The notes beneath the pieces were generated by a model, which saw only the letters and a list, made by a program, of their open reading frames with translations, had not been told where the DNA came from and did not search any database. Shown here one piece after another: positions 4,331-22,302 of a DNA stretch of 33,135 nucleotides. How positions within the stretch are numbered: position 1 is the first letter of the stretch; the number at the start of each line of letters is the position of its first letter. Location of the stretch: contig CALVXQ010000003.1 in the NCBI GenBank assembly GCA_944371435.1, forward strand, positions 1 to 33,135. The letters are read 5' to 3'. A program made the position numbers and the translations under genes. Origin of the DNA: an uncultured Bacilli bacterium. GTDB lineage: Bacteria > Bacillota_I > Bacilli_A > RF39 > UBA660.

Positions 4331-5578
4331 ATGCAAGAAAGAAATATCCTTTGTATCGATTTAAAAAGTTTTTTTGCCTCCGTTGAATGTCTAAAAAGAA
4401 AAATAGATCCTTTTAAAGTTAATTTAGTAGTAGCTAATCCTAAACAAGGTCAAGGTGCTATTACCTTAGCAGTTACCCCACATTTAAAAAGTCTAGGCGT
4501 TAAATCAAGGGGACGTTTATATGAGATACCTAAAGAAGTTAAATATATAATTGCAGAACCTCATATGGCTTCCTATATTGAGTATAGTAAAAAAGTAGTT
4601 AATATCTACTTGAATTTTGTAGCCGAAGAAGATTTACATATTTATTCAATCGATGAATGTTTTCTTGATTTAACTAATTATTTGAAACTGTATAATAAAA
4701 CTGATTATGAAATAGCACAAGACATTTTAAATACTATTTATAATGAAACTGGATTAACTGCTACCTGTGGAATTGGTCCTAATATGTTATTAGCTAAAGT
4801 AGCTATGGATACAGAAGCTAAGAAGTATAAAAATGGGATTGCAAAATGGACTTATGCTGATGTTAAAACTAAATTATGGAGTATTAATCCTTTATCTAAA
4901 ATGTGGTCAATCGGGCCACGAATGGAAAAAAGATTAAATGGCTTAGGATTATATACGATTGGCGATATTGCTAATTATGATAAAAACAAATTAAAAGATA
5001 AATTTGGGGTTATTGGCGAAGAATTATGGTTACATGCTAATGGAATTGATAACTCAGTAATTAGTGATTGGAAAGAAGCACCTAAAGATTTAAGCTATTC
5101 CCATTCACAAGTGCTATTCAAAGATTATAATGGCAATAACATAAGATTAATAATTACGGAAATGGTTGAAGTAATTACTAAAAGATTAAGAGAAAATCAT
5201 AAACAAACAGGTTTAATTGGTCTTAATATTGGGTATTCTAAGAATATTGGTGGTGGTTTCTATCACTCTATAAAAACAGTACCTACTAAATCTTCACGAG
5301 AAATTCTTAGAGTCTGTTTAAATATATTTGATAGATATTATACTAATTTACCAATTAGAAAAGTTAGTATCGTAGCCGGAAGATTAACTGATGATGATTC
5401 TTTTCAACTAAATTTATTTGAAGATTATAACAAAATTGTCGAAGATAATAAATTAAATGAAACAATCGATGAAGTTAAAAATAAATATGGTAAAAATAGT
5501 ATTCTAAAAGCTTCAGCTTTATTAGACGACTCCACTGCTATCGAAAGAAATAAAAAGATAGGAGGTCATAATGCCTAA
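4331..5578 (+). CDS. Y-family DNA polymerase (UvrX/DinB-like translesion polymerase)
   Basis: The 415-residue product is a translesion polymerase that copies damaged templates with low fidelity. The catalytic acids are visible: Asp10 in CIDLKSFFAS and Asp108-Glu109 in YSIDECFLDLT, which bind the two metal ions. A helix-hairpin-helix-type thumb (WSIGPRMEKRLNGLGLYTIGDIA, here about residues 193-215) and the little-finger region follow. Near the C-terminus QLNLF (about 364) is a typical beta-clamp binding motif. The AAGGAGG ribosome site is strong. Its last 8 bases overlap the YolD-like gene, the same pairing as B. subtilis YqjW/YqjX and UvrX/YolD. Such cassettes are often SOS-controlled or carried by mobile elements; here only half a LexA box is visible. 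Confidence 0.93.
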   Translation: MQERNILCIDLKSFFASVECLKRKIDPFKVNLVVANPKQGQGAITLAVTPHLKSLGVKSRGRLYEIPKEVKYIIAEPHMASYIEYSKKVVNIYLNFVAEEDLHIYSIDECFLDLTNYLKLYNKTDYEIAQDILNTIYNETGLTATCGIGPNMLLAKVAMDTEAKKYKNGIAKWTYADVKTKLWSINPLSKMWSIGPRMEKRLNGLGLYTIGDIANYDKNKLKDKFGVIGEELWLHANGIDNSVISDWKEAPKDLSYSHSQVLFKDYNGNNIRLIITEMVEVITKRLRENHKQTGLIGLNIGYSKNIGGGFYHSIKTVPTKSSREILRVCLNIFDRYYTNLPIRKVSIVAGRLTDDDSFQLNLFEDYNKIVEDNKLNETIDEVKNKYGKNSILKASALLDDSTAIERNKKIGGHNA

Positions 5579-5888
5579 AAAAAGTCGCGAAGAAATAATA
5601 TGGCAACCATTTAATTCTTTAGTACCTTTAAATTCTCTTAAAAAAACAATTGATAAAAATAAAGTAAAAATCCCTAAACCTGTATTATCTCCTGATCAAA
5701 TAAAAGATTTGGAAGAAAAAATATTAGATAGTTATTATAGTAAAGAAGAAATAATTATTACTTACTATCGCGAAGGATTCCTATATAAAGTAAAAGCGTA
5801 TATAAAATATATCGATAAGTTAAAAAAACAATTAATACTAAGTAATGGTTTAATAATATATTTTAAACAAGTAATAGCAATATCTTAA
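5571..5888 (+). CDS. YolD-like protein
   Basis: A 105-residue basic protein that starts inside the end of the polymerase gene with AGGAGG 5-6 bases before its ATG, so the two are translationally coupled. The opening (KKSREEIIWQPFNSLVPL) and the small beta-rich C-terminal half (ITYYREGFLYKVKAYIKYID ... LILSNGLIIYF) fit the YolD-like family. Members are found beside Y-family polymerases and are thought to assist or control them; the mechanism is not known to me. A terminator follows 6 bases after the stop. Confidence 0.85.
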   Translation: MPKKSREEIIWQPFNSLVPLNSLKKTIDKNKVKIPKPVLSPDQIKDLEEKILDSYYSKEEIIITYYREGFLYKVKAYIKYIDKLKKQLILSNGLIIYFKQVIAIS

Positions 5889-5894
5889 ATACCT

Positions 5895-5923
5895 AACTTC
5901 AAACGAAGTTTCTTTTTTTATTT
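5895..5923 (+). terminator. Intrinsic terminator after the polymerase-YolD pair
   Basis: AACTTC (5895-5900) pairs with GAAGTT (5905-5910) around an AAAC loop, followed by TCTTTTTTTATTT. Confidence 0.8.
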
Positions 5924-5969: not shown

Positions 5970-7535
5970 ATGCAGAAGATATTAATTGAAATTAAAGATG
6001 ATACGTTAGAATTTACAAGTTTAGTTAAATTAAAACCTAATACTAGTAATTTATTAAATACGAATATTATTTCTAATAATGAATTATTATTCTCTTTAAG
6101 TTATTTAAACGAAAATTATAATATAGTTAATTTATTTATTAAAGAATTATGTCAAGATAAAAAAATTAAGAAAATTTGCATTAGTAATATGTCTTTAGTA
6201 AGTACTATTTGTCATCTCGTAAATAATGTTAATATCGAAGAAATAGATATTCAGGAAGAAGTAAATATATCTTATGAAGCTTATGAAGCTTTAATTACTA
6301 TCCCCTCTTTGATAAAGATTGTTTGTTTTACCATACCTACTTATATGTTAGATTTATTTGATCAAAAAAATATTATTGTCGAATCACGGCAAGAAGTATT
6401 GTTCACTTCTAAGTTTATGGAAGATAATAATTTAACTTCTTATTCAAATATATATTATAAAGAAAAAATTAATTTTAATACTATTACGGAAGAAGATTTA
6501 GAAGATTTTAAAACATTCTTAAAAATCAATAAGTATTTAAAGACTATATATCTTAATACTTCTCTTAAAGAATTTGTAAATAAAGTTGTTGAAGTTTTAG
6601 TTAGTTATCGTTTAAAAAAAGTCAAAATAATTATTTTAGATGATAATATTAATAAAGTTAATGCGGATAATTTAAGAGAACTTAATAAAAAATATAGTAA
6701 ATATCTGATAATTAGAATATCTTATTCGAAAGAATATATTAAAAAGAATTATTTAAAACAGATAATATTAACTACTTTTTCTTATTGTTTAATAATTATT
6801 ATTGGCATTGTTGCTATGACATTTAGTTATATTTTTATTAGTAATTATCAATCAGAACAAAACTTAATAGCTATTCAAGAAGAAATAGATAATATATTAA
6901 AAGATTATCCTAATCATGATATTACTCCCCCAACAACTACTCCTGATGGAGATGTTCCAAGTATTCCTACTCTTACTCCTAATGAAGCTTATTTAAGTTT
7001 AAAAGAAATCAATGATGATACAGTAGGTTGGTTAACTGTACCTGGTACTAATATCGATTATCCTGTTGTTAAAACTACTGACAATGATTATTACTTAACT
7101 CATAATTTTAAAAAACAAAAGGATTATAATGGTTGGGTATTTATGCATTATTTAAACAATGATACTACCTTAGATAAAAATACTATTCTATTTGCCCATA
7201 ATCGTTATTATAGCGGTTTAATGTTTGGAACTCTAAACAATGTAAATAACGAAGATTGGTATAGTAATACTGAAGAAAATTTAATTACTTTTAATACTAT
7301 TTATAACAATTATCAATGGGAAGTATTCTCTATTTATAGTATTAAAGTAACAGCAGATTATCTAAAAACAATTTTTGATAGTGATGAAGAATGGTTAGAA
7401 TTTATTGACTTACTAAAAAGTAGAAGTGTTTTTACAAGTGATATTGAAATAGGACCAGATGATAAAATATTAACTCTATCAACTTGTTTAGAAAATAATA
7501 AAAGATTAGTAGTTCATGCCGTATTAAGAAAGTAG
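5970..7535 (+). CDS. Class B sortase with a large N-terminal cytoplasmic domain
   Basis: Of 521 residues the last 190 form a class B sortase, a transpeptidase that attaches proteins to the cell wall or to each other: NDDTVGWLTVPGTNIDYPVV (about 348-367), catalytic His410 in FAHNRYYSGLMFGTL, Cys506 in LTLSTC and Arg512. One membrane segment lies at about 263-291, then a Thr/Pro-rich spacer (DITPPTTTPDG). Unusually, about 260 residues precede the membrane segment and should be cytoplasmic. They show alternating short strands and helices with hydrophobic periodicity (for example KKIKKICISNMSLVSTICHL), loosely like a leucine-rich repeat; I cannot name the fold. Ordinary SrtB proteins are about 230-250 residues. 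The Shine-Dalgarno (AAAGTGG) is weak. The 1007-residue gene follows after 7 bases. No sorting-signal substrate is seen in the window. Confidence 0.9.
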   Translation: MQKILIEIKDDTLEFTSLVKLKPNTSNLLNTNIISNNELLFSLSYLNENYNIVNLFIKELCQDKKIKKICISNMSLVSTICHLVNNVNIEEIDIQEEVNISYEAYEALITIPSLIKIVCFTIPTYMLDLFDQKNIIVESRQEVLFTSKFMEDNNLTSYSNIYYKEKINFNTITEEDLEDFKTFLKINKYLKTIYLNTSLKEFVNKVVEVLVSYRLKKVKIIILDDNINKVNADNLRELNKKYSKYLIIRISYSKEYIKKNYLKQIILTTFSYCLIIIIGIVAMTFSYIFISNYQSEQNLIAIQEEIDNILKDYPNHDITPPTTTPDGDVPSIPTLTPNEAYLSLKEINDDTVGWLTVPGTNIDYPVVKTTDNDYYLTHNFKKQKDYNGWVFMHYLNNDTTLDKNTILFAHNRYYSGLMFGTLNNVNNEDWYSNTEENLITFNTIYNNYQWEVFSIYSIKVTADYLKTIFDSDEEWLEFIDLLKSRSVFTSDIEIGPDDKILTLSTCLENNKRLVVHAVLRK

Positions 7536-7542
7536 GTGTCTT

Positions 7543-10500
7543 ATGATAGATAATATAATTAAAGATTTAAACAATATTATAGAATATACAATATATAAAG
7601 ATATTAAACTAGATTCAGAAATGCAAAACAAATTAGATAATATTATTATATATATGAATAATAGTAAAAATATAATTAAAGATTTAAATAGTATTATGGA
7701 AATTAAAAATAAAGAAAATAAAATATTTTTAGAAAGATATATTAGTATTATATTATCTAAAACTAACCTTTCTTTTTTAGATATTAGTAAAATTCTTAAA
7801 ACTAATATTTCTTTAAATATAAAATATATTTTATGGAATAAACTAAGTACTAGTAATAAAATAAATTATCTTCTTGCTAATAATATAGAAACTGACGATT
7901 TAACTCTAATAAATATTTCTTTAGATAATAAAAATACTAAGTTATATCATAATATAGTCAGTAATAAAGATATTTTAAAAAAATTAAAAAATATTACTCC
8001 TAATATTAATATCGTAAAAAAAGAAGATTTTGAAACAGAAGATATCTTAAAAGTAATTGATTCTAAGACAGTTAGTAAGTATATTATGAAATATTATTCT
8101 ACTTATAATAATTTTAAAAACTTAGTAATTAATAATAACAATATTATTAATTATGCTAATAAATATAGTATTAAGATAGATAAAATAGATAAAGAAGACT
8201 TAAACACTCTAGTAAAAGAATATCCTTTTATCATTACTAAATTAGATACTAAAATAAGTATTAATTATTTAACTAGCGAAACTTTAAAACAAATTTTAAA
8301 TAATAATAAAGATTTAGATATTACTAGTAGTGCTAAAGAATTATTAACTATTTTAGATTCTAATAATATTTATAAATATTTTAATTTAGACTTTGTTAAA
8401 CAACAAAAAGATTTTACGCTAAGTATCTATCCTTTTGCTAAACTAGATAATAACTTAACTAAAGAAATTATATATAACTATGATTTATTAAAGAAATTTA
8501 CTTATAATACTATTGTTACTATTATTAATAATTTATACATGGAAGAAATGAAAATAAGTCTATTTAGAAATAATAATTTTATCGAAGAAATCCCTAGTTA
8601 TTATTTAATTCAAATTTTAAATAATATGAACTTTAAAAACGTCTTTAATTTATTACAAAATATTAATTTATTAACTAAACTAGATAACTTAAATATTAAA
8701 TTAAATATTGAAGATAACTTATTTGTGGATAGTTACTTAGATTCTCCTACTCTAGTAAATATAAGTAATCCCAAAATGCTCTATAATATGCTTTTATTAA
8801 GTAATAATACTATAAAATATTTAGAATTTCCTTACTTAAATTCCCGTTTAAATATAGTAGATATAATAGATATCTTAGTTAATAAAAATATTAATATCTT
8901 TGATACTTCTTTATTAAAGTTATTTAAAACTTTAGAAATTAAAGATTATATTAATAAAATGCTAAAAACTTATCATATCAATTACGATTTATTATTAAAT
9001 GATTATGTTTTCCATAATATCTATAACTATAATAAAAATAAATTAACTAGTCTTGATTTAGATAATATAAAATATTTATTCGATAAAATATATACTAAGG
9101 GAATTAATACTTCGGCTTGTTATGCTATTGATATAGATTCTTTTAAAAGTATTTTAAATAGTTATATCCTATTAGGTTTTGATAATACTAATAAATTATT
9201 TGAAAATGGAACATATAATATTACTTTTAAAAATATTAATAGTTTAAAAAATATTTATGTAAAGAAATTTAAAAAAGACTTAAATTTATTAAGTGTTAAA
9301 AAAGTTACTAAACTATTTAGTAAATATTTAATAAAATTAGATAAAAATAGTAATGAAAATTTCTTAAGAAATTACTTATTAGATATACCAGAAATAAAAA
9401 GTTATCTTATGTTATTTAATAATACTAAATATTCTTCTCTTAAAGATACTACTAAATTATGTCTAAATTATTTAGATTATAGTAATTATAATAATGAAGT
9501 AGCTAACAATTTATTAACTAACTTTATTAAAGGATTTAATAGTTACTATAAAGATAAATGGATATTAGATTTAAAAAATAGATTTGATAAAATAACGATA
9601 AAATCTTCTTTAATAAGTACTAATATCTTATATCAAACAGAAAAAGTAATAGATCAAGATTATACAATTAAATATAAATTAGACTTATTTAAAAAATTTT
9701 TAAAAGCTAATAATAAAGATAATTATTCTAAATACTTTAATATTCCTTTAGATCAAGTAATAGTTAAATATTTAAAATATATTAAAACAAAAATAACTTT
9801 AGATGATTTAATAAACAAAGTTTTAATAGATACAGATATAAATACGATATTAAATAGTTTAAATATTAAAACACCAATTTTTTATAACTTATATAAAGAA
9901 ATTAAAAAAGAAGAAGAATTAATCAATAATTATAATATTATACTTAAAACTAAATTAAAGAATATGCATAGTACTAGAGTAATTACTATCTTAAATCATA
10001 TTTGTTATAATACTACTATTCCTTTTATAATAGATAATAAACTTAAAAAAATTATTAATGATTTAAAAAATAAAATAAGTTTATTTAATGGAAAAGTAGA
10101 TGTTAATAAACTAAATAATTCTTTAGAATATACTAATATATTTACATTTAATAATCTTAATGAACTGGAAGAATACGATTTAAAATACCAAAAAATTAAT
10201 GATATTTTAGAAAAAACGGATAAATTTGTTAATAAATATATTAATACTGAAGAAATAAAAGCTAAATATAAAGATTACTATAAATATTCTTTAGATACTT
10301 ACTTAAATATGATACCAGTTAATAAAAATTATTATTCTTTAAAAAGAAGATATTTATATTTAGAAGATTTTAAGAAAATATTTAATGGTTATGACTTATC
10401 TATTAATCATTATTTAAGTTCTACTACTAAATCTTTCTTAGTAAATAATCTAGTATATGTTGCTTTAGGTTATCTAGATGATTTTACTAATAACTTTGGT

Positions 10501-10566
10501 ACATCTTTAAATCATATTGATGATACAAAACTATACCATAATATCTATGAATTAGTTAGCAAATAA
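7543..10566 (+). CDS. Large unknown Asn/Lys/Ile/Leu-rich protein in the sortase operon
   Basis: A 1007-residue open frame starting 7 bases after the sortase gene and ending before a strong terminator, so the two form one operon. I recognise no family. There is no signal peptide, no membrane segment and no C-terminal sorting signal, so it should stay in the cytoplasm. More than half the residues are Asn, Lys, Ile or Leu (38 of the first 60). The sequence is a long succession of short amphipathic stretches such as KDLNNIIEYTIYKDIKL and FNLLQNINLLTKLDNLNIK, suggesting an alpha-helical repeat or solenoid. The C-terminal 200 residues carry more Tyr and charged residues (KRRYLYLEDFKKIFNGYDL) and look more globular. 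Cys is rare. It may act with the cytoplasmic part of the sortase; that is inference from adjacency only. Confidence 0.78.
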   Translation: MIDNIIKDLNNIIEYTIYKDIKLDSEMQNKLDNIIIYMNNSKNIIKDLNSIMEIKNKENKIFLERYISIILSKTNLSFLDISKILKTNISLNIKYILWNKLSTSNKINYLLANNIETDDLTLINISLDNKNTKLYHNIVSNKDILKKLKNITPNINIVKKEDFETEDILKVIDSKTVSKYIMKYYSTYNNFKNLVINNNNIINYANKYSIKIDKIDKEDLNTLVKEYPFIITKLDTKISINYLTSETLKQILNNNKDLDITSSAKELLTILDSNNIYKYFNLDFVKQQKDFTLSIYPFAKLDNNLTKEIIYNYDLLKKFTYNTIVTIINNLYMEEMKISLFRNNNFIEEIPSYYLIQILNNMNFKNVFNLLQNINLLTKLDNLNIKLNIEDNLFVDSYLDSPTLVNISNPKMLYNMLLLSNNTIKYLEFPYLNSRLNIVDIIDILVNKNINIFDTSLLKLFKTLEIKDYINKMLKTYHINYDLLLNDYVFHNIYNYNKNKLTSLDLDNIKYLFDKIYTKGINTSACYAIDIDSFKSILNSYILLGFDNTNKLFENGTYNITFKNINSLKNIYVKKFKKDLNLLSVKKVTKLFSKYLIKLDKNSNENFLRNYLLDIPEIKSYLMLFNNTKYSSLKDTTKLCLNYLDYSNYNNEVANNLLTNFIKGFNSYYKDKWILDLKNRFDKITIKSSLISTNILYQTEKVIDQDYTIKYKLDLFKKFLKANNKDNYSKYFNIPLDQVIVKYLKYIKTKITLDDLINKVLIDTDINTILNSLNIKTPIFYNLYKEIKKEEELINNYNIILKTKLKNMHSTRVITILNHICYNTTIPFIIDNKLKKIINDLKNKISLFNGKVDVNKLNNSLEYTNIFTFNNLNELEEYDLKYQKINDILEKTDKFVNKYINTEEIKAKYKDYYKYSLDTYLNMIPVNKNYYSLKRRYLYLEDFKKIFNGYDLSINHYLSSTTKSFLVNNLVYVALGYLDDFTNNFGTSLNHIDDTKLYHNIYELVSK

Positions 10567-10573
10567 TAAATAG

Positions 10574-10610
10574 AAAATAGCATCGATAAAAATTTTATTG
10601 GTGCTATTTT
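10574..10610 (+). terminator. Strong terminator after the sortase operon
   Basis: A near-continuous 18-bp stem: AAAATAGCA (10574-10582) pairs with TGCTATTTT (10602-10610) and the inner ATAAAA pairs with TTTTAT, with two G-T pairs and almost no loop. The arms end in A and T runs, so it could act on both strands. Confidence 0.8.
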
Positions 10611-17076: not shown

Positions 17077-17095
17077 TTAACTAGAGGTGAACAAA

Positions 17096-18163
17096 ATGGA
17101 AATAGTAAAACTTAATGAATTACCTATTAATTATAATATGGATAAGGAGTTATTACGTTTACTTGCAGATGCTAATGAATTATATGGGGAGTATAAATCA
17201 AAATTAAAAAACAGTAAAATAAATTCTAAACTTTTTTTAGATTCCCTTATTTTAAAAGAAAGTTTTAAATCAACACAAATTGAAGGAACTCAAATCTCGC
17301 AAGATGATATATATTATTTAAAATACATGCCTAAAACAGATGAAAACTTGGAAATTCAAAATTTAAAAATGGTAATTGATTATGCTAAAAACTATTTAAA
17401 TGAAAATGATAAAATAAATTTGGAATTTGTAAATGAAATTCATAAAATTCTCTTAAATAGCGTTCGCGGTAATGAAAAAGAACCAGGTAAAATACGCAGT
17501 ATTCAAAACTGGATTGGTCCAAATGGATGTACAATTGAAGAGGCAAGCTATATCCCTCCAGCACCAGAAAAAGTACCGCTTTTACTAGATAATTTATTTA
17601 AATATATGAATGATTTATATATAGATCCCCTATTTATAAATATGGCTATTTCTCATTGCCAATTCGAATCAATTCATGCTTATAGAGATGGTAATGGAAG
17701 ATTAGGTAGAGCTTTAATTCCAATCCAATTGGCTGCTTTAACAAATGAAGAACCTATTTTATTCTTATCAGAAATTATAGAGCTTTATAAACCTACTTAT
17801 TATCGCTTATTAAATGAAAGTCGTAATGGAAATATATTAGGATTTATTAAATTCTTTTTACAATGTATTATAGAACAATGCAATAACTATATATATAAAA
17901 TAAATCGAATTGAACAAATATATGAAAAAAATAATGAGAAAATAAAAGTATTAAAAAGTAGTGCTGTATATCAAATAATGCCTATTATTACAAAATTAGT
18001 AATTTTTACTAAAAAGGAAATAGAAGATGAATCTAAATTATCCAGAAATACAGTCTCTAGAATTATTGATAAATTAGTAGAACTTAATATTTTAGTTCCT
18101 GATACTAATCACACAAAACTTGGTTATCGTTACCAAGATATATACAATGTATTTATCAAATAA
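17096..18163 (+). CDS. Fic family AMP/nucleotide-transferase, self-inhibited class, with C-terminal winged helix
   Basis: Fic enzymes transfer AMP or another nucleotide-derived group to a target protein. The active site is complete: HAYRDGNGRLGR (194-205) matches HxFx(D/E)GNGRxxR with Tyr for Phe. An inhibitory helix with S59-x3-E63-G64 lies in the N-terminal domain (class II arrangement), so no separate antitoxin is needed. The C-terminal 60 residues (IFTKKEIEDESKLSRNTVSRI) look like a winged helix-turn-helix that could bind DNA. The ATG at 17096 is preferred (GAGGTGA 6 bases upstream) over the in-frame GTG at 17087, which overlaps that site; 355 residues. The gene sits between tRNA-Arg and scpB, flanked by 76-bp direct repeats, which suggests acquisition as a unit. 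The target protein is unknown. Confidence 0.93.
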   Translation: MEIVKLNELPINYNMDKELLRLLADANELYGEYKSKLKNSKINSKLFLDSLILKESFKSTQIEGTQISQDDIYYLKYMPKTDENLEIQNLKMVIDYAKNYLNENDKINLEFVNEIHKILLNSVRGNEKEPGKIRSIQNWIGPNGCTIEEASYIPPAPEKVPLLLDNLFKYMNDLYIDPLFINMAISHCQFESIHAYRDGNGRLGRALIPIQLAALTNEEPILFLSEIIELYKPTYYRLLNESRNGNILGFIKFFLQCIIEQCNNYIYKINRIEQIYEKNNEKIKVLKSSAVYQIMPIITKLVIFTKKEIEDESKLSRNTVSRIIDKLVELNILVPDTNHTKLGYRYQDIYNVFIK

Positions 18164-20989: not shown

Positions 20990-21338
20990 AATCTTTAGCT
21001 TTACAAAATAAAGTTATTATGAATGCAAATATAATGGCACTAGTAATACCGGCTGAAGTAGTAGATAATAAGTTACTAAACATTCCTAAAGCTCCTTTAG
21101 TATAATACCCTTCAATGCATGCTTTATATAATAAATTACCAAATGATGTAATAGGAACACTAGCAGCAACACCAGCCCAATCAATAAAATAGTCATAGAT
21201 ACCTAAAAATGATAAGATAGCTCCAAGAACAACAAATAAAGAAGTAATATGACCTGCAGTTAATTTAGTATTATCTAATATTAATTCACCTAATAAACAA
21301 ACAATCCCACAAAATATTGCCCCATTAAGATAAATCAT
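20988..21338 (-). CDS. spoVAE: Stage V sporulation protein AE (SpoVAE)
   Basis: A 116-residue membrane protein with about four hydrophobic segments. GEL near the start, KLTAGHITSLFVVLGAILSFLGIYD, and the central DWAGVAASVPITSFGNLLYKACIEG are typical of SpoVAE (the EB form). With SpoVAC and SpoVAD it forms the channel in the spore inner membrane that takes up dipicolinic acid during sporulation and releases it at germination. GGAGGTGG precedes the ATG, and the start lies inside the last codons of spoVAD (14-base overlap). Confidence 0.94.
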   Translation of the reverse strand: MIYLNGAIFCGIVCLLGELILDNTKLTAGHITSLFVVLGAILSFLGIYDYFIDWAGVAASVPITSFGNLLYKACIEGYYTKGALGMFSNLLSTTSAGITSAIIFAFIITLFCKAKD

Positions 21339-22302
21339 CTTCCACCTCCAAACTTATAGCATGACATATCGCTGGTATAGTCTTTTTTTGATTAACCGAT
21401 GTTGGGGAATGTAAAGAACCTGTTGCTAATAATAAAATTCGTTTATACTTTCTATTATTTAGTATCTTGTTAAAAACTACTAATGGTAAAGTAACTGGTC
21501 CGGAAGAACCTGATATAGCAAAATCTTCCTCCTTAAAAAGTAATGAACCAGCATCAATATAATTATCAATTTTAATATTATTTACCTTTAATAATTCTTT
21601 AAATATTTTAGCTCCTACTCTTCCTAAATCACCAGTAAGAATAACATCATAATAGTTAGGATCTCTTTTAAATTCTTCAAGATGTTCTTTTAAAGTCGTA
21701 AAAGCCGCAGGAGCCATTACTGCACCCATATTAAGACAATCACTTACACCATAATCAACTACTTTACCAATCGTAGCCGATTCCACTTTAATCTTCGTTT
21801 TATAATTAGTTAGATAAACACCTACTGCTCCAGTAGCAGTTAAAGTACTTCTTTTAATCTTAGGTGCTCCGTATTCGATTGGATAACGAAATTGTCTTTC
21901 AGCTACATTAATATGACTACTAGTTAATACTAAAGAATTTTTTATCTTTTTACTATCAAGCATATTAGCCGCTACAATTAAACTTTCATTAAAAGAAGCA
22001 CAGGCACTATAGCAACCTAAATAAGGAATAGGAAATTTAGCCATAACGGCACTAGAAATAGCAAGTTGATTAGATAATTCTCCAGATACAACTAAATCAA
22101 CTTTATTAAGTTTATTATTCTTAATTAAATTATCTAAACAAGCATATTGCATTTTTTCTTCAGCTTCTTCAAATGTTTTCATTCCAAAATAATAATCTGT
22201 TATTATTTGATCATAATCCTTAATGCTACCTTTAACTTCATTTGGTCCAGCAATAGAGTAACTATCCGCAATAAATACATTTTTAAACTTATAACTAGCC
22301 AT
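21325..22302 (-). CDS. spoVAD: Stage V sporulation protein AD (SpoVAD)
   Basis: A 325-residue thiolase-fold protein that binds dipicolinic acid on the forespore side of the SpoVA channel. Recognisable regions are VFIADSYSIAGPNE near the start, PYLGCYSACASFNESL (with the thiolase-like Cys pair), VLTSSHINVAERQFRYPIEYG, LTATGAVGVYL, VILTGDLGRVG, and the C-terminal LLLATGSLHSPTSVNQ. Length is close to the usual 338. It overlaps spoVAC by 8 bases and has AAGGTGG as ribosome site. Confidence 0.96.
   Translation of the reverse strand: MASYKFKNVFIADSYSIAGPNEVKGSIKDYDQIITDYYFGMKTFEEAEEKMQYACLDNLIKNNKLNKVDLVVSGELSNQLAISSAVMAKFPIPYLGCYSACASFNESLIVAANMLDSKKIKNSLVLTSSHINVAERQFRYPIEYGAPKIKRSTLTATGAVGVYLTNYKTKIKVESATIGKVVDYGVSDCLNMGAVMAPAAFTTLKEHLEEFKRDPNYYDVILTGDLGRVGAKIFKELLKVNNIKIDNYIDAGSLLFKEEDFAISGSSGPVTLPLVVFNKILNNRKYKRILLLATGSLHSPTSVNQKKTIPAICHAISLEVEDDLS

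Follow-up and report, generated by a model that had tools for sequence, protein, structure and literature searches.

Cells with several sortases must pair each surface protein with its enzyme. The accepted sorting code is an extracellular pentapeptide, the cytoplasmic tail being seen as a charged stop, and the canonical cell wall sorting signal is made up of LPxTG, a hydrophobic segment and this charged tail. For C. difficile the tail has been counted with the membrane anchor (PMC5569036). The closest described enzymes are the SrtB sortases of S. aureus, B. anthracis and C. difficile, which have a catalytic domain with His, Cys and Arg, a single N-terminal membrane anchor and NPxTG-like motifs. 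A cytoplasmic N-terminal extension is known from Streptomyces SrtE1, where it is ~100-200 residues long and required in vivo (PMC5148588), so a cytoplasmic extension of a sortase is not as such new. RF39-type Bacilli are reported to keep sortases, which related orders have lost (PMC10868615).

The DNA analysed here (the window) is a stretch of 33,135 nucleotides from an uncultured Bacilli bacterium of the RF39 lineage, a placement to which genome size and A+T content also point; its family consists of gut bacteria with very small genomes. It encodes a sortase that shares all of the above features of SrtB, but differs from SrtB in having a ~260-residue LRR-like cytoplasmic domain (the N-domain), and none of the matched solved SrtB structures covers such a domain. 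With SrtE1 it shares the cytoplasmic N-terminal extension: SrtE1 belongs to class E, its extension has acidic and basic segments, and the accessible part of the report proposes no conserved substrate tail (PMC5148588). Assignment to an SrtE1 type was considered and rejected, given that the best curated family is class B and that the extension is a folded-looking domain. A search of the open-licence literature turned up no LRR-like sortase domain, no tail-reading domain and no tail code.

Gene organisation

The features of the locus are collected in Table 1. The best curated family for the sortase in NCBIfam is the class B sortase TIGR03064 (163.1 bits, cut-off 153.75), and the Pfam Sortase match covers residues 355-519. 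There is only one strong hydrophobic segment (residues ~264-292, peak 2.55 in a 19-residue hydropathy scan), for which the orientation N-in/C-out is expected, with about 260 residues ahead of it. This agrees with the original prediction of a large domain on the cytoplasmic side of a class B sortase. The prediction also had a 1007-residue protein encoded close downstream and closed by a strong terminator, and the reading frame does indeed follow on the same strand after a gap of 7 bases and ends at a 17-pair hairpin; one terminator-like site was found against 0.2 expected. Between the window and genome G002, the differences at codon positions 1, 2 and 3 are 50/23/125 for the sortase gene and 123/58/225 for the 1007-residue gene, and both genes are under protein-level constraint.

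Table 1. Features of the sortase locus, in positions of the window.
Feature	Position	Strand	Evidence
Short hairpin and T-run (AACTTC-AAAC-GAAGTT..TTTTTTT) between the pol IV/YolD-like genes and the sortase gene	5895..5919	+	Fold -4.4 kcal/mol, z -2.0, weak
Class B sortase gene with N-terminal cytoplasmic domain	5970..7535	+	521 aa; TIGR03064, Pfam Sortase, 58-member alignment A1
Proposed tail-reading N-domain, residues 1-262, an alpha/beta solenoid that looks LRR-like	5970..6755	+	AlphaFold2, Foldseek, profile matches
Single transmembrane helix, residues ~263-293	6756..6848	+	Hydropathy; long helix 254-299 in the model
Sortase B catalytic domain	6987..7532	+	His410, Cys506 and Arg512 invariant across 58 relatives (A1); SrtB crystal structures matched by profile
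Partner gene of one clade, for the 1007-residue helical protein (family c3)	7543..10566	+	17/17 adjacency; AlphaFold2 model all-helical
Best conserved c3 core, residues ~310-475	8470..8967	+	Invariant columns 342-469 of alignment A4; present in short members (281-494 aa) as well as in full-length ones
Terminator-like hairpin at the end of the two-gene unit	10574..10610	+	17 pairs, -19.2 kcal/mol, z -7.6

Several other genes of the window may be mentioned. A Y-family DNA polymerase gene and then one for a YolD-like protein (4331-5888) lie directly upstream of the sortase, an arrangement that genus mates have kept (L040, L041). The window also encodes Ddl and a Mur ligase, which suggests a cell wall. 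A Fic/DOC family protein (17087-18163) stands alone on the + strand. There is also a SpoVAD homologue (21325-22302), with neighbours of 116 and 149 aa, and its presence in a genome of ~1 Mb suggests that some sporulation genes have been kept. A search of viral contigs gave one distant sortase match only.

Predicted fold of the N-domain

AlphaFold2 was run on residues 1-300 with three input sequences, the 58-member alignment being left out of the folding. In the model (pLDDT 81.7, pTM 0.68) helix and strand alternate regularly and are followed by a long membrane helix, so that the N-terminal part is a folded-looking domain. The top PDB match of the N-domain model in Foldseek is ribonuclease inhibitor (probability 0.96, E 3.7e-3, TM 0.24), and many of those ranked next are LRR/F-box or NLRP proteins, although unrelated folds also appear among them. 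In BFVD, the best-named matches are mostly LRR and F-box proteins. Overall the Foldseek matches range from E 4e-4 to 1e-2, with TM-scores of about 0.2-0.25. A sequence-profile search of the PDB gave seven matches, all below threshold and all LRR proteins, among them ANP32A and SKP2.

In its alternating helices and strands the model looks like the solenoid of LRR proteins such as these. It differs from them in its low TM-scores, in its fusion to a sortase membrane anchor and in having no Pfam LRR motif, the LRR family being absent from the Pfam matches of 58 N-domains. On the strength of these weak fold and profile matches we describe the N-domain as looking LRR-like, by fold only, and do not claim membership of the LRR family. 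LRR-like solenoids typically bind proteins.

Distribution of the N-domain

A profile made from the N-domain alone (A6, 58 rows) detects it in 134 of the 386 genomes, and in 51 of the 150 genera, of the window's family. It nearly always stands in a full-length sortase frame: the open frame mostly has 510-590 codons, which is the length of a fused sortase, and several of the matches in shorter frames are at contig ends. Samples of the remaining class and phylum gave no full-length match, and a single 65-residue match (E 8.7e-5) comes from another family. The original prediction required that the domain should not be common in ordinary sortases; it is frequent among class B sortases of this one family, and in those samples it was not found full-length outside it. 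About 9 changes of N-domain state fall on an rpoB tree of 70 genera.

Some genomes have two or three N-domain sortases at separate loci: G143 (L053, L055, L073), G201 (L068, L080) and G025 (L079, L090). In G143 and G201 each of them is near its own protein with the C-terminal tail described below, which offers a natural test for tail specificity. One sub-clade of N-domain sortases (L069, L077, L083, L089) has a conserved convergent gene set (clusters c14/c16/c13) that includes the gene for a protein of 500-640 aa, which has VPxTG and ends in a short tail (for example RNGKFN). At another locus (L009, 3626-4339) a collagen-like protein with GPTGPTGP repeats is encoded two genes from the N-domain sortase.

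A clade-specific partner gene

The 1007-residue protein has a hydropathy peak of 1.15 and hence neither a membrane segment nor a signal peptide, in line with the original prediction. It has no family match in Pfam, NCBIfam or the PDB (best PDB profile match E 0.74), and with the N-domain lacking a Pfam LRR match, the description of both as outside known families is upheld. The AlphaFold2 model, made from two close sequences, is all-helical, with a pLDDT of 44 that is too poor for a fold search.

A profile of the family (c3) finds members of 281 to 1397 aa in 17 of the 386 genomes, from 6 genera. In all 17 the gene comes directly after that of an N-domain sortase and in the same orientation, as expected if the two were neighbours in relatives, and the pairing is more than chance. 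The carriers make up about one clade of the sortase tree (two changes, against 14.4 with shuffled labels). In genus g119 (L233, L234, L235, L043) the protein is truncated to 281-494 aa, with its gene still directly 3' of the sortase, as if decaying or being reduced to the conserved core. In G326 the profile match crosses three stop codons.

About 117 of the 134 N-domain genomes lack the c3 family, and in these the sortase is usually the last gene ahead of a convergent neighbour. The N-domain aligns between sortases with and without the partner, and no homology between the N-domain and the 1007-residue family was found. It follows that the partner is a clade-specific addition, that the N-domain is older and more general, and that the general role of the domain must be elsewhere. 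Of the idea of a sortase and its cytoplasmic partner as one system, the linkage is thus genuine and exclusive, while the N-domain is independent of the partner. The adjacency, the short gap and the shared terminator would all suit an N-domain that evolved to bind the 1007-residue protein, coupling synthesis or secretion of a substrate to its anchoring; set against the spread of the domain through genomes without the family, across which it still aligns, and the unrelatedness of the two families, this reading is highly improbable. The 1007-residue protein appears instead to be a fast-evolving, sometimes truncated helical accessory of one clade, and our guess is that it acts as an adaptor or scaffold.

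Likely substrates and their tail

No gene adjoins N-domain sortases as consistently as that of a likely substrate. A generic motif scan for a signal peptide, NxxTG and a transmembrane segment finds such a protein in most N-domain sortase neighbourhoods. The divergent neighbour of the sortase gene is, at 17 loci, a member of a single family of ~200-aa proteins with a signal peptide, an extracellular domain, an NPxTG-like motif, a membrane helix and a tail. The likely substrates generally have NPxTG and a membrane helix, and then end, mostly at a fixed distance, in K-[F/L/M/I]-Y-[K/R/H]-[I/V]-COOH. They are like the canonical sorting signal in the motif, the membrane helix and the positive residues near the end, but unlike it in that sequence and length are conserved to the last residue (K-Phi-Y-[K/R/H]-[I/V]-COOH).

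The tailed proteins form 27 ectodomain clusters, one of which holds 45 of the 89 proteins, and the tail is also found on distal proteins with unrelated ectodomains. Pfam gave no match for four substrate proteins of N-domain sortases. In several distant relatives the tail is a variant one (KFPQA, KKKKYI), or no tail was found. A division of tails with F from those with L or M according to presence of the 1007-residue gene was suggestive in adjacent substrates, but is broken by distal ones in G187 and G035, and is not claimed here.

In the window's own genome (G000) the likely substrates are on other contigs and not beside the sortase, and so the tail was not visible from the window on which the original prediction was based. 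One is a 200-aa protein ending TPDTG...SRKNKFYRV (contig C23, L105), the other a 144-aa protein ending NPETG...SKRNKFYHV (contig C8, L110). This genome has one further sortase, which is short (183 aa) and class B-like (contig C10, L131 1414-2956). Its gene overlaps that of a 336-aa protein which contains a MucBP domain, carries a sorting signal (VNTG) and ends WWKNEKKDY, and these two form a separate sortase/substrate pair.

Association of the tail with the N-domain

With a motif scan that is blind to the tail sequence and requires only Lys or Arg within the last 12 residues, we compared 47 sorting-signal proteins near N-domain sortases with 21 that were either near short sortases or found with PF00746 in genomes having only short sortases. 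A hydrophobic residue at -4 together with I/V/L/M/A at -1 occurs in 39/47 and 0/21 respectively (Fisher 2e-11, a value that is only indicative, as the tail rule was set after the tails had been seen and the rows are phylogenetically related). Lys is at -5 in 40 of the 47 proteins near N-domain sortases, and the protein ends exactly 31 residues past TG in 34/47 against 3/21. Four NPxTG proteins near short sortases have no such tail (L142, L156, L162, L169), two of them from genomes (G014, G003) in which tailed proteins do lie near a further sortase, one with the N-domain. The contrast between N-domain and short sortases is seen inside single genomes: KFYRV/KFYHV and KNEKKDY in G000, KFYRI and KKRNN in G014, and KFPQA and NYEN in G003.

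A profile of the whole sorting signal (A2), made largely from proteins adjoining N-domain sortases, was searched genome-wide. Of further genomes with the N-domain, 44 of 58 have a match (best E 3e-21); of those without it, 9 of 73 do, and these matches are weak (best 1.9e-4). If the tail is scored at a profile E up to 1e-5, 26 of the 36 N-domain genomes on the rpoB tree have it, the other 10 lacking a strong A2 match, against 0 of the 34 others. Dependent evolution of tail and N-domain fits this tree better than independent evolution (LR 21.1, 4 d.f., p 3e-4). A stricter independent-pairs test agrees in direction in all informative pairs at this threshold (about 3.7 against 0), which are too few for significance (median p 0.125).

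The tail might be a lineage-specific version of the usual positive membrane-retention tail, co-inherited with the substrate genes, its link with the N-domain then reflecting shared ancestry of the locus. Charged, membrane-holding tails are present in all sorting signals (e.g. PMC5569036), many of the tailed proteins adjoin the sortase gene, and about half of them share one ectodomain cluster. Retention, however, needs only charge and not a fixed C-terminal K-F/L-Y-K/R-I/V at a fixed length, and the tail both occurs on distal, unrelated ectodomains and follows the repeated gains and losses of the N-domain. We regard this explanation as unlikely.

Somewhat unlikely, in our judgement, is a second possibility, that the N-domain serves localisation or recruitment, docking the sortase to the Sec machinery, lipid II synthesis or the divisome, with a third party or the membrane reading the tails. 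An LRR-like fold would suit any protein partner, the 1007-residue protein could be such a partner where it is present, and the cytoplasmic extension of SrtE1, needed in vivo, has been proposed to bind other proteins (PMC5148588). A housekeeping partner would nevertheless leave unexplained why the tail is restricted to substrates of N-domain sortases and is absent beside short sortases of the same genome, and the most consistent neighbour of the sortase gene is that of the substrate.

Proposed mechanism

Direct reading of the tail is favoured here because N-domain and tail face the same compartment and occur together across genomes, because the fold class is one that often binds proteins, and because in three genomes the tail also separates the two sortases of the same cell. 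The domain structure, the linkage of the two genes, the tail and its association with the N-domain are observed, whereas physical recognition of the tail and the working of the 1007-residue protein are what we infer; that the N-domain reads the substrate tail, with the 1007-residue protein as a clade-specific accessory, is a proposal to which we give an even chance. Outside the membrane, NPxTG/TPxTG would be cut and the protein joined to peptidoglycan by the ordinary sortase B domain, while inside the cell the LRR-like N-domain would hold the C-terminal tail of the substrate, usually 31 residues past TG. For efficient delivery to the N-domain sortase a Sec-inserted protein would need the inner tail as well as the outer motif, and the substrates of this sortase would thereby be kept separate from those of any short sortases that share the cell. 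The helical protein, which in one clade comes from the same transcript, may serve there as an adaptor or scaffold that attaches to the N-domain or to the tail once this is occupied. The full proposal, in which the sortase examines its substrate twice, by NPxTG outside the membrane and by K-Phi-Y-[K/R]-[I/V] bound to the LRR-like N-domain inside, with a helical adaptor in one clade, is tentative, its chances being slightly short of even.

Implications

If a folded cytoplasmic domain does read a specific tail, sorting would start at the inner side of the membrane, and cell-wall proteins would carry a sorting code that is read in the cytoplasm. The N-domain and the tail would then be a transferable tag/receptor pair. 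Tail reading would also provide a testable role for the 1007-residue family, so far without annotation, and would explain how substrates with similar motifs are kept apart by two class B sortases in one genome of ~1 Mb.
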